39,389 bases of DNA. It comes from Planctomycetota bacterium. Its GTDB lineage: Bacteria > Planctomycetota > Phycisphaerae > Phycisphaerales > SM1A02. The stretch spans positions 1-39,389 of the forward strand of contig VGXR01000021.1 of the NCBI GenBank assembly GCA_016873255.1. The letters are read 5' to 3'. A model generated the notes under the pieces. That model was not told where the DNA came from. It searched no databases and saw only the letters and a list, made by a program, of their open reading frames with translations. Shown here one piece after another: positions 34,473-37,684 of the stretch (position 1 is its first letter; each line of letters opens with the position of its first letter). The position numbers and the translations under genes were made by a program.

Positions 34473-35788
34473 GGCGCGTTCTGCGAGACGGAGGCCGAGG
34501 CACCCACGGACTGCGACTTGCCCAGTGACTCGATGCGCTGGACGGCGCCTTCCTTGCTCATCACCACGAGGTCGCCGTCCATCGGCGACGTGAGGCGGAT
34601 CACCTCGGCCTTGGGCAGCCGCGCGGTGCGGACGATGCGGCCGGTGCCTGCGTCGACCGCCGACAGGGCGCGGTCCCCCGCGTCCCAGCAGAGGAGCTCG
34701 GTGCCCATGCGTCCGATGACGTCGCCGGCGGCCTTGCTCTTCCAGCGGACCTCGCCCTCGGGCTTCTCCCCGGGCAGCGGGTTGAACGCCACGAGGCCCT
34801 CGCCCGGGATCTGCAGGTAGACGCCGTCGCCGATGGCGGCCGGCGGGTGCAGGAGCGGGGACTGCGTGAAGTACTGCCACAGCACGCGGCCGCGGTCGAG
34901 GTCGAAGGCCCAGAGGCTCTGGTCGCGGCTGGCCACGTAGCACGCCTCGCTGCCGATGGCGATCGGCGCCTCGACGCCCGCGGACAGGCGGCGGGTCCAG
35001 AGCACGCCGGCGGTGGCGGCGTCCATGGCATGGACGGTGCCGTTGGTGGAGCCGACCATCGCCACCTGCCCCGACACGGTGACCGGCGCGATGACGCGGC
35101 CACCGAGGGTGGTGGCGCGCCAGTTGTAGCCCGTGCCGTACTGGAACCAGCTGGCAAGCCCGGTGCCCGTGCCGTAGATGAAGGCGGGGCCGAACACCGC
35201 GGGGGTGGCCGATGGCAGGTGCGCGAAGCGGCTCCGGCGGATGAGGTTGCCGGTACCTGCATCGAGCGTGATCGAGGCCATCTCCGTGAGCACGTAGACA
35301 TTGTCGAGGCGCCCGTTCGGCAGGTGCTCGATGGTGAGCATCCGCTCGATGCCCTGGTTGGTGGACGCGCGCCAGACGGTCTCGCCGTTGTCGCGGCGGA
35401 TGCGCACCACGCTGCCGGCGCTGTCCCCGAACCAGTAGCTGTCCGAACCCGGCACCACCACCTGCCCGCCGGCGCCCTTTGTGGCGAGCGGCTCGGTCTG
35501 CCAGACGATGCGCAGGCCGAAGTCATCGGCCACGCTCGGAGACATCACGTAGCGGGCGTCAAGCGCCGCGATGGCGGCCTTGCGGGCTTCCGGCGAATCA
35601 GCGGCTCGGCGCGCGGGAGCCGCCTGCGGCGCCTCGGTCTTGGGAGCGTCGGTGGCCCGGGGCGCGGTTGATTCGGGGGTCGCAGTGGTCGGCTGCTGCG
35701 CCACGGCCGTCGCGGCGGCGACGAGCGCGGCACCGATGGCAAGCGTGCGGACGGCGCGGCGGCCGATCGTGGTCGGGGTCGGGGTCAT
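34469..35788 (-). CDS. Secreted PQQ-type beta-propeller protein
   Basis: The 439-residue protein starts at ATG 35788 (AGGAG 11 nt upstream); a GTG at 35800 would add four residues. The N-terminus is a signal peptide (RTLAIGAALVAAATAVAQQ) followed by a Pro/Thr/Ala-rich spacer (about 30-65). The body has quinoprotein-like repeats: SYWFGDSAGSVVRIRRDNGE, ITLDAGTGNLIRRSRF, VHAMDAATAGVLWTRRL, LWAFDLDRGRVLWQYF and LSAVDAGTGRIVR. This is the PQQ/BamB propeller type; no PQQ-dehydrogenase catalytic residues were recognised, so a binding or scaffold role is more likely. It overlaps purH by 4 nt. Its promoter must lie in the long hairpin-rich gap upstream. Confidence 0.85.
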   Translation of the reverse strand: MTPTPTTIGRRAVRTLAIGAALVAAATAVAQQPTTATPESTAPRATDAPKTEAPQAAPARRAADSPEARKAAIAALDARYVMSPSVADDFGLRIVWQTEPLATKGAGGQVVVPGSDSYWFGDSAGSVVRIRRDNGETVWRASTNQGIERMLTIEHLPNGRLDNVYVLTEMASITLDAGTGNLIRRSRFAHLPSATPAVFGPAFIYGTGTGLASWFQYGTGYNWRATTLGGRVIAPVTVSGQVAMVGSTNGTVHAMDAATAGVLWTRRLSAGVEAPIAIGSEACYVASRDQSLWAFDLDRGRVLWQYFTQSPLLHPPAAIGDGVYLQIPGEGLVAFNPLPGEKPEGEVRWKSKAAGDVIGRMGTELLCWDAGDRALSAVDAGTGRIVRTARLPKAEVIRLTSPMDGDLVVMSKEGAVQRIESLGKSQSVGASASVSQNAP

Positions 35789-36334
35789 CGCAGTCTGCAC
35801 TCCTGGGTCGCCCGCGGGCCCCCGATCAGGCCGGGAAGGACCGCGGATCCGCGAGTATACGGATCGCCCGGCGGGCCCGTTCCGGAGGAAGCAGTCGGCA
35901 AAAAGAAGTTCGGCCGCGCCCTTTTCACGGTTCGCGGCCGACCTTCCTTTCCCTCATACCCTCGCAACACGACCCGGTGGCTGAATGGTGATCACCAGAG
36001 GTGATCAGAACACCAAGAGTTCCCTTTTCCCAGTGTCCCTTAGAAGGTCGAGTCGGACCCTTTCTTCCGACTCAAACCAAACCTTGGAACCACCAGGGTG
36101 GTTGCTGGCCCTTTTCACGGCTCCCTTCTTCCGATCAAAGGGTTAGGGTGAGTATGCCAGCGGATGGGCGGATTGCAAGTCAGTGCCACCCGATTTTTCG
36201 GTTGGTTGGCGATTGGCGGAACGCTGGTTCCGGTAAAGCCGCGCGTGCGGCCCGAGTTTGTCCATGACGATGCCGAGAACCGATGCGAGGGAGCTTCGGA
36301 ATGGCCGCCACGCACCCCTAGACTCGGATCGGTC
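35789..36334. other. 546-bp non-coding gap with hairpin cluster
   Basis: No credible gene lies here. Four inverted repeats occur in series: 35911-35940 (CGGCCGCG stem, 14-nt loop), 35989-36007 (TGATCACC stem, 3-nt loop), 36050-36073 (GAGTCGGA stem, 8-nt loop) and 36088-36103 (AACCACC stem, 2-nt loop). The 13-mer GCCCTTTTCACGG occurs twice, at 35918-35930 and 36108-36120, bracketing the other three hairpins. The region is less GC-rich than the genes and separates two divergent genes for exported proteins. It could hold a small structured RNA or a dense operator region; I see no match to a known RNA family. Confidence 0.6.
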
Positions 36335-37684
36335 ATGCCGACCGTCCGCCTCGCCATCCTGCTGCTGGCCTCCCTTGCCGCCCTCGCCCCCGCGGTGGAA
36401 GCGTCCGCTCAGTACTCGCGCGGGGGCGGGCGCCCCGGCCAGCAGGCCGTCGGCACCTGGTGGGACCGGACCGCGCCGCCGCTCGGACGCAAGCTCCCCA
36501 CCAGCCGCTACTACTCGATCCGGAGCGACCTGCCGGCGGCGGACACCAAGGCCTACGCCGACCACCTCGACATCATGTACGACGAGTTTGCGCGGCGGCT
36601 CGTCAGCACCACGGGCCTGCGCCGCCGATCGCCCGAGTACCCCAACGTCCTGATGTTCGCGAGGCAGCAGGACTATCTCGACACGCTCCGGACGCAGTTC
36701 GGCATCAACGGCACGGGCTCGGGCGGCATGTTCTTCGTGTCCCCGCGCGGCGCCGGCCTGGCATTCTGGGTGGAGGGCCTTCCGCGGCAGCGCGTGCACC
36801 ACGTGGTGCAGCACGAGGGCTTCCACCAGTTCGCCTACGCGTTCTTCGGCAACGAGCTGCCGCCCTGGCTCAACGAGGGCCTCGCGGAGTTCTTCGGCGA
36901 GTCGGTGGTCGAGGGCACGCGCGTGGTCGTCGGGCAGGCCAGCCCGCAGGCGGTGGATTCGGTGCGCGCGGCCGTCGAGCAGGGAAAGTACATCCCGTTC
37001 CGAGACCTGCTGCTCATGGACAGCGCGCGCTGGAACGGCAACGTGCAGAACATGAGCGGCACCGCGGCCATCCAGTACCCGCAGAGCTGGTCGATGGTGC
37101 ACTTCCTGGTGTATGCCGAGGACGGCCGGTACGAGCCCATGTTCCGGGACATGCTCAAGCGCCTCAACGGCGGCACCAAGCCGCTCGACGCCCTGAAGCA
37201 GAGCTACAGCCTCGACTCCGATGCCGAGGTGGCCGAGTTCGAGGCGCGATGGAGGAGATACGCCACCGACCTGCGCCCCGGCGCGTACGTGGCCGCGCGC
37301 GGCCGCCTGGAGTTCCTGGCCGAGGGGCTCCGCGAGGTGTGGCAGAAGGGCATGCGCCCGGCCAACCTCGAGGAGCTCAAGGCCGCCATGCGCGAGGTGA
37401 AGTTCCAGTACACGGCCGGGTCGCACGGGTACGTGATGAAGATGGACGCCAAGGACGACGCCAACTTCACGGTGCCCGACGACGCCGTCAACTCAGCGGC
37501 GGTGACGCTGGAGCTCGTCGCGCAGAAGCCGCCCAAGGGAAGCAAGCAGAAGAAGCTCGAGGCCGAGCACCCGACGCCGCCCATGCTGCGCACCCGGAAC
37601 CTGCGCCCCAACGACGTGGGCATCCAGTGGACGCGCAGCCCCTCCGACCCGTCGCAGTTCGGCTACGAGGTGGTGGTCAACTGA
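36335..37684 (+). CDS. Secreted DUF1570-like zinc metallopeptidase
   Basis: The 449-residue protein starts at ATG 36335, giving a clean signal peptide (PTVRLAILLLASLAALAPAVEASA); the frame stays open upstream in non-coding-like sequence. A peptidase MA-type active site is visible as QHEGFHQFAYAFFGNEL (His160, Glu161, His164) followed by PPWLNEGLAEFFGES with Glu181/Glu185, the likely third zinc ligand. This is the gluzincin HExxH pattern common in planctomycete DUF1570 proteins. The C-terminal third is charged and then beta-like (VGIQWTRSPSDPSQFGYEVV). Function beyond an exported peptidase cannot be told. It is divergent from the PQQ gene across the hairpin-rich gap and convergent with prpB, only 10 bp away. 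Confidence 0.85.
   Translation: MPTVRLAILLLASLAALAPAVEASAQYSRGGGRPGQQAVGTWWDRTAPPLGRKLPTSRYYSIRSDLPAADTKAYADHLDIMYDEFARRLVSTTGLRRRSPEYPNVLMFARQQDYLDTLRTQFGINGTGSGGMFFVSPRGAGLAFWVEGLPRQRVHHVVQHEGFHQFAYAFFGNELPPWLNEGLAEFFGESVVEGTRVVVGQASPQAVDSVRAAVEQGKYIPFRDLLLMDSARWNGNVQNMSGTAAIQYPQSWSMVHFLVYAEDGRYEPMFRDMLKRLNGGTKPLDALKQSYSLDSDAEVAEFEARWRRYATDLRPGAYVAARGRLEFLAEGLREVWQKGMRPANLEELKAAMREVKFQYTAGSHGYVMKMDAKDDANFTVPDDAVNSAAVTLELVAQKPPKGSKQKKLEAEHPTPPMLRTRNLRPNDVGIQWTRSPSDPSQFGYEVVVN

Follow-up and report, generated by a model that had tools for sequence, protein, structure and literature searches.

Csr small RNAs are described as widespread in Gammaproteobacteria, with ANGGA displayed in short hairpins, and the protein FliW is described as the other antagonist of CsrA (PMC7366521, PMC7652899). 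Control of CsrA by small RNAs and control by FliW are termed mutually exclusive in one review (PMC7366521). Another review, from 2020, reports that fliW is absent from Gammaproteobacteria and anti-correlated with BarA-UvrY, and states that joint action of FliW and a small RNA on CsrA in any species remains to be determined (PMC7652899). In the window analysed here, which is the whole stretch of 39,389 nucleotides of planctomycete DNA, a cluster of hairpins most likely encodes, judging from its sequence, a small regulatory RNA that had not been described before and that is shared by one planctomycete family, referred to below as the AAGGG sRNA. With a probability of roughly 0.43, we read it as a stand-alone gene whose product acts as a multivalent decoy, most likely for CsrA in the form of a short paralogue unlinked to FliW.

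Like CsrB/CsrC and RsmX/Y/Z, the AAGGG sRNA is predicted to be a stand-alone small RNA with an intrinsic terminator, and its 245 nt fall within the 100-400 nt given for the class (PMC7366521). As in CsrB and RsmZ, a single short motif recurs in the loops of hairpins and in linkers, also immediately ahead of the terminator, and as in the hosts of Csr/Rsm RNAs, the genome that carries it encodes CsrA. Unlike in CsrB and RsmZ, the repeated motif is AAGGG/AGGGA instead of AGGA, plain GGA is not enriched, and the terminator loop carries the motif without GGA; unlike the Csr/Rsm RNAs, it occurs in Planctomycetota, and FliW is also present in many of its hosts. In E. coli CsrB, GGA occurs 22 times against 14.4 expected and AGGA 14 times against 4.9, while the corresponding values for CsrC are 14 against 9.0 and 10 against 3.2; the unpaired probability of GGA is 0.80 in CsrB and 0.61 in CsrC, compared with 0.36 in the AAGGG sRNA. 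None of the Csr/Rsm families of Rfam matched the AAGGG sRNA. Membership of the Csr/Rsm family fails on the motif and is not claimed, because the motif is AAGGG/AGGGA, AGGA is depleted and the terminator loop is without GGA.

The AAGGG sRNA also resembles 6S RNA in being structured and of similar size. The architecture of 6S RNA is one long stem with a bubble, unlike the several loops found here, and identity with 6S RNA was rejected, as the locus gave no RF00013 match and the sole candidate lies elsewhere, on contig C13. This candidate (G000:C13:49634-49816, L032) fell short of the Rfam cut-off, with 38.1 against 46.4 bits, and suggests a divergent 6S RNA in the group of G000. The FopS/RbpB-type small RNAs of Bacteroides share with the AAGGG sRNA a terminator and the presence of RRM proteins in the host; FopS is described as a multicopy family whose members have a terminator and, at the 5' end, a single-stranded seed (PMC11697453), unlike the AAGGG sRNA, which has many loops and was found as a single copy in each genome.

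Limits, signals and fold of the predicted gene

The element lies in a gap of 546 bp between genes (35789-36334, crude gene caller), as noted in a preliminary description of this DNA, and the lower GC content noted there also holds (gap 61.3%, RNA 55.1%, window 71.5%). The gap had further been called the only one of its size, whereas the same caller finds two longer ones, of 858 bp (containing a tRNA) and 757 bp. The hairpin cluster itself was recovered, while the limits first given for it, 35911-36120, clip both ends of the element. Its stems include an 18-nt pair with 89% complementarity (35901-35918/35933-35950), two stems of 8 bp (35989-35996/36000-36007 and 36050-36057/36066-36073) and an AACCACC/GGTGGTT element at about 36088-36105. 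The duplicated 13-mer that had been said to bracket the cluster, GCCCTTTTCACGG, is the loop GAAAAGGG read from the opposite strand; the window has exactly two copies of it, at positions 35918 and 36108, and a third, weaker one (CCCTTTTCCCAGT) lies at 36022.

The hairpins belong to the minus strand. The segment 35890-36160 folds with z = -4.80 on this strand (0/200 shuffles as good) and with z = -3.33 on the plus strand (1/200 shuffles as good), and G-U pairs are present on the minus strand in the genus alignment. An RNA from the plus strand was rejected in view of its weaker fold and of the G-U pairs, promoter and terminator that indicate the minus strand. A stand-alone, leftward gene with its own sigma-70-like promoter and its own intrinsic terminator is supported by conservation, and its predicted elements are as follows.

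36173..36178, minus strand: -35 element TTGCAA (TTGC(A/G) in 12/12 genus sequences)
36151..36156, minus strand: -10 element CATACT (CATA(C/G)T in 12/12 genus sequences)
35900..36144, minus strand: predicted small RNA gene of about 245 nt (conserved block; model R1 matches 35900-36144)
36109..36142, minus strand: P1 hairpin, CCCUUU..CGG / CCG..AAAGGG, loop AAGAAGGGAG, the least certain helix
36109..36116, minus strand: copy of GAAAAGGG in the 3' arm of P1
36088..36105, minus strand: P2 5' arm GCAACCACCCUGGUGGUU, closing the multibranch (partner 35964-35982 in the minimum-energy fold; covariation)
36049..36074, minus strand: P3 hairpin, loop AGAAAGGG (5/9 pairs with two-sided changes in the genus)
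36008..36038, minus strand: P4 hairpin, whose loop AAAAGGGAAC does not vary in the genus alignment
36022..36029, minus strand: copy of GAAAAGGG in the P4 loop
35989..36007, minus strand: P5 hairpin, variable and without the motif
35964..35982, minus strand: P2 3' arm AGCCACCGGGUCGUGUUGC
35946..35963, minus strand: purine linker GAGGGUAUGAGGGAAAGG, 5' of the terminator
35900..35950, minus strand: intrinsic terminator with stem GGUCGGCCGCG, loop AACCGUGAAAAGGG, then CUUCUUUUU (two-sided pair changes; U-tract)
35919..35926, minus strand: copy of GAAAAGGG in the terminator loop

The 5' end of the RNA is placed near 36144 from the position of the promoter, and its 3' end at the U-tract of the terminator. 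The spacer between the -35 and -10 elements is constant at 16 nt in 12/12 genus sequences, with a variable sequence of its own, and in the genus alignment the terminator stem is followed by TTCTTTTT.

Covariation supports a predicted fold in which a 5' hairpin is followed by a multibranch that bears three hairpins, then by a purine linker and finally by the hairpin of the terminator; P1 has the least support. Twelve single-sequence folds concur in a long-range P2 that closes a multibranch with P3, P4 and P5, together with the terminator hairpin. P1 differs among these folds, its 5' strand pairing with the 3' linker in some of them, and in G007 a different pairing stem keeps AAGGGA in its loop. 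As for P3, AAGGG is found in loops on other stems elsewhere in the family.

The preliminary description had proposed comparative folding, and relatives keep the stems while their bases change in a compensatory way. Standard pairs make up 91.9% of the pair cells in the genus alignment, and 12 pairs carry changes on both sides, two values that none of 500 shuffles reached, while the number of further pair types was reached by 7/500; sliding the partners lowers pairing to 34-45%. Since one P2 helix is off by one column in half of these sequences and P1 is misaligned in three, both are under-counted in this alignment. Across the R1 matches, 55 of 56 pairs have two-sided changes in an alignment (A5; 62 rows from 59 loci, with 3 weak opposite-strand matches kept in the count) that was fitted to R1, so that its pair counts lean towards R1. 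The terminator was also compared in an unfitted alignment (A6), in which 9 of 12 pairs have two-sided changes (reached by 1/500 shuffles) among 32 family sequences, taken from 52 available 3' ends; the 20 omitted ends include eight of the nine whose terminator loop is without AAGGG. The further pair types of the terminator, reached by 210/500 shuffles, give the fold no support.

A conserved, undescribed family of structured small RNAs is very likely on these comparisons. Rfam 15 gave no match in the window at the gathering score, just two weak matches, both to other families, in 35700-36400 at E <= 5, and no match in 13 relatives at E <= 1. Moreover, the titles and abstract openings of the literature searched hold no description of the AAGGG sRNA or of a Csr-type small RNA in Planctomycetota. 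A tRNA or tmRNA was rejected as the identity of the AAGGG sRNA, as was a small protein gene, since no reading frame is common to the 12 genus sequences.

Distribution among relatives

In a DNA similarity search of 61 genomes, 12 of the 14 same-genus genomes, the window's own included, gave a match to the element at E <= 4e-44; the two same-genus genomes without a DNA match are 69% and 64% complete, and the other 47 genomes gave matches at chance level only in this search (best E 0.02). The covariance model R1, with 247 positions and 56 pairs, matches 58 of 400 genomes of the order, which represent 12 of 163 genera and all belong to one family (f1). There is one match per genome, plus a partial second match in G012, and 15 of the 58 matches span less than 190 nt and leave part of the RNA unaligned. 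A class-wide search with a model of the terminator (R2) matched 14 of 397 genomes, 13 of them in the same family; the one outside (G485, E 0.004) appears to be an unrelated terminator. A divergent family member that R1 missed is apparently present in G026, with GGGA-rich loops, a terminator loop without AAGGG and a weak R2 match, and the R1 counts of the AAGGG sRNA are therefore under-counts.

A collection scan with the most conserved stretch returned 14 named contigs, of which 10 are labelled Planctomycetota (Planctomycetaceae, Phycisphaera, Phycisphaerales), labels that point to Phycisphaerales as the order. The other four labels are Blautia (L043), Ruminiclostridium (L045), Proteiniphilum (L046) and Chitinophaga (L039), and the contig labelled Chitinophaga, which equals the same-genus contig G009:C89 in length, is probably a mislabelled bin.

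The loop motif and its candidate partners

The motif counts given here rest on differing sets of 22, 15, 23 or 52 RNAs. Compared with dinucleotide shuffles of 22 family RNAs, AAGGG (98 observed, 21 expected) and AGGGA (93 observed, 16 expected) are frequent, GGA occurs 222 times against 187 expected, and AGGA is depleted (29 against 46). The looser A.GGA is found 108 times against 46 expected in the same 22 RNAs, and 5 times against 1.9 in the RNA of the window, which has 8 GGA against 8.9 expected and 1 AGGA against 1.9; GGA enrichment reaches p < 0.05 in 2 of 15 family RNAs. Among 52 family RNAs, AAGGG occurs one to eight times each and AGGGA one to nine times, with six AAGGG in the RNA of the window; the motif is poorest in genera g47 and g60, and L100 has one AAGGG and one AGGGA. 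The longer GAAAAGGG has 22 copies genome-wide, three of them in the AAGGG sRNA, a total that is not unusual (15 for the reversed control pattern).

The motif is also predicted to be exposed, the mean unpaired probability in family RNAs being 0.60 for AAGGG and 0.54 for GGGA/AGGA, compared with 0.21 for GGC/GGT. In minimum-energy folds of 23 RNAs, the window's own included, 42 of 121 hairpin loops (each counted with two 3' bases) contain AAGGG (1.9% of loops in shuffles) and 45 of 121 contain GGA (21% in shuffles). In the 42 loops, AAGGG is followed by A 25 times, by C 14 times and by U three times. The terminator loop holds AAGGG in 43 of 52 family RNAs and is without it in nine. The stems that bear AAGGG loops vary in sequence among genera, and therefore the loop, not the stem, is what is kept.

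These loops may be bait for an RNA-binding protein. When abundant, the AAGGG sRNA would bind several copies of such a protein and draw it off mRNAs with similar sites, which would thereby be released; the protein would most likely be CsrA, in particular the short paralogue unlinked to FliW. We infer that a multivalent decoy would be the best mechanism, because like motifs on exchangeable stems are the anatomy of an RNA that gathers several copies of one ligand, and titration of CsrA would be the leading candidate for its action. In support of CsrA as the ligand, AGGGA fits the ANGGA form given for Csr small RNAs (PMC7366521). Against CsrA stand the terminator loop, which has AAGGG without GGA, and the 17 of 42 AAGGG loops followed by C or U.

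Of 41 genomes, 40 have CsrA, and the protein is nearly universal in the order, which makes its co-occurrence with the AAGGG sRNA weak evidence. G000 has two csrA genes, one directly after fliW with a product of 92 aa and one with a product of 75 aa, and a lower-scoring kind of CsrA measures 73-78 aa in seven genomes. All 34 RNA-positive genomes tested, which are the more complete of the 47 RNA-positive ones outside the genus, have the lower-scoring paralogue, and 21 also have the other CsrA. FliW was found in 23 of 37 genomes. Of the 34, 13 have solely the lower-scoring CsrA, give no FliW hit and keep the RNA; they comprise 12 genomes of genus g46 and G014 (g2). Because these 13 genomes, with the lower-scoring CsrA alone, keep the RNA without a FliW hit, the ligand, if a CsrA, is probably the short paralogue without a link to FliW. 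A fuller version, in which the RNA would be a sponge of the short CsrA beside a FliW-linked CsrA in one cell, with an AAGGG(A) loop code of its own and with control by small RNA and by FliW coexisting, is tentative and rather doubtful.

A separate observation concerns the 3' end of csrA in G000 (C18:17539-17548; L107 1340-1349), where AAGGGAAAGGGAAC stands directly before a terminator-like hairpin. The pattern GGGAAA(N)GGGA has eight sites in the genome, one of them at this csrA end, and the reversed control has nine. At the csrA end, G002 and G007 carry a similar motif and that of G005 and G013 is degenerate; the other loci with a long csrA that were inspected showed none after the gene. Two of the eight sites lie in the ribosome-binding site or leader of secreted-protein-like genes (L131 at about 1500, AAGGGAAAAGGGACATG; L130 at about 1500) and are possible targets of the same RNA-binding protein.

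Alternatively, the AAGGG sRNA might be a multivalent decoy or scaffold whose ligand is not CsrA but another protein, such as an RRM-domain RNA-binding protein that recognises AAGGG in hairpin loops; this we consider unlikely. The depletion of AGGA in family RNAs and the 17 of 42 loops in which AAGGG is not followed by A, a poor fit to a GGA-binding protein, speak for it, and RRM_1 proteins occur in 19 of 20 RNA-positive genomes (33 of 34 overall, for example G000:C7:19487 and C7:20569). However, they are equally common where the AAGGG sRNA was not found (14/14 genomes, 10 negative by R1, including G026 with its later weak R2 match, and four negative by the DNA search alone). The sequence reported as enriched for RbpB, an RRM protein of Bacteroides, is a 41-nt motif of a small RNA family (PMC11697453), which provides no link to AAGGG.

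Regulation by base pairing, in which purine loops such as AAAAGGGAAC would pair with CCCUU/GUUCCC around start codons, is likewise improbable. Several similar loops are exposed, the P4 loop is invariant in the genus, and TTCCC is over-represented before start codons (34 against 20 expected), but the longer complements are not (CCCTTT 2 against 2.6, TCCCTT 2 against 2.8, GTTCCC 8 against 6.5). A motif-guided, and hence biased, search found a secreted-protein-like 5' leader near G000:C6:49400 complementary to part of the P4 hairpin. Hfq (PF17209), on the other hand, was found in 0 of 41 genomes, compared with 5 of 14 control genomes, and an Hfq-binding RNA was rejected on that ground.

The same leader region near G000:C6:49400 (L124 1480-1600) has a GGGA run antisense to the secreted-protein-like gene, and L124 was rejected as a second motif-rich RNA because its motifs are antisense to this leader. 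As for the motif itself, AAGGGA is enriched upstream of starts (8 against 2.8 expected), as is AAGGAG, the ordinary ribosome-binding form (12 against 2.8), while AAGGG (18 against 17.5) and AAAGGG (1 against 2.9) are not; this upstream test, with 345 starts from crude gene calls and mononucleotide shuffles, does not separate CsrA sites from ordinary ribosome-binding sites.

Gene neighbourhood and meaning for the family

In the window, a BamB/PQQ-like gene (PF13360) and purH are located downstream of the AAGGG sRNA, which is divergent from a DUF1570 gene, and several genera retain one or both of these neighbours. A cis-acting leader or attenuator, for example a riboswitch, of the PQQ/BamB-like gene and purH would suit the window and several genera, where the RNA is upstream on the same strand and the terminator lies about 110 nt before the PQQ/BamB-like gene. 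Nevertheless, this is very unlikely: in L060, L063 and L102 the next gene found downstream is a convergent SpoIID gene, which could not be read from this RNA, and Rfam gave no match for a leader or riboswitch. A same-strand downstream gene is thus present in the window and others but is not conserved, and since gene context varies, the AAGGG sRNA, as far as its sequence context tells, is not a leader of one gene. In L102, a PspA-like gene lies upstream (Pfam match below its cut-off). The preliminary description had stressed the exported-protein genes on either side; these neighbours look incidental, because some relatives have the AAGGG sRNA between other genes.

That description had offered two options, a structured non-coding RNA or a multi-operator region. 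The former is favoured, for the minus strand, by compensatory stem changes in relatives and by the predicted promoter and terminator that frame the stems. It is extremely improbable that the region acts purely as DNA, as multiple operators or repeats that yield no RNA, although the gap separates divergent genes and contains short direct repeats: the motif lies in hairpin loops, the stem pairs change on both sides and still pair, G-U pairs fall on the minus strand, and promoter and terminator are conserved.

With the AAGGG sRNA, a group in which few small RNAs have been annotated gains a well-supported family of structured RNAs that Rfam 15 does not contain; one survey gives eight distinct small RNAs for the whole PVC group (PMC9029176). 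If CsrA is titrated by it, the AAGGG sRNA would extend RNA decoys of a global RNA-binding protein beyond Gammaproteobacteria, to bacteria in which no Hfq was found. In that case, the co-action of FliW and a small RNA in one species, the question left by the 2020 review (PMC7652899), would become directly testable.
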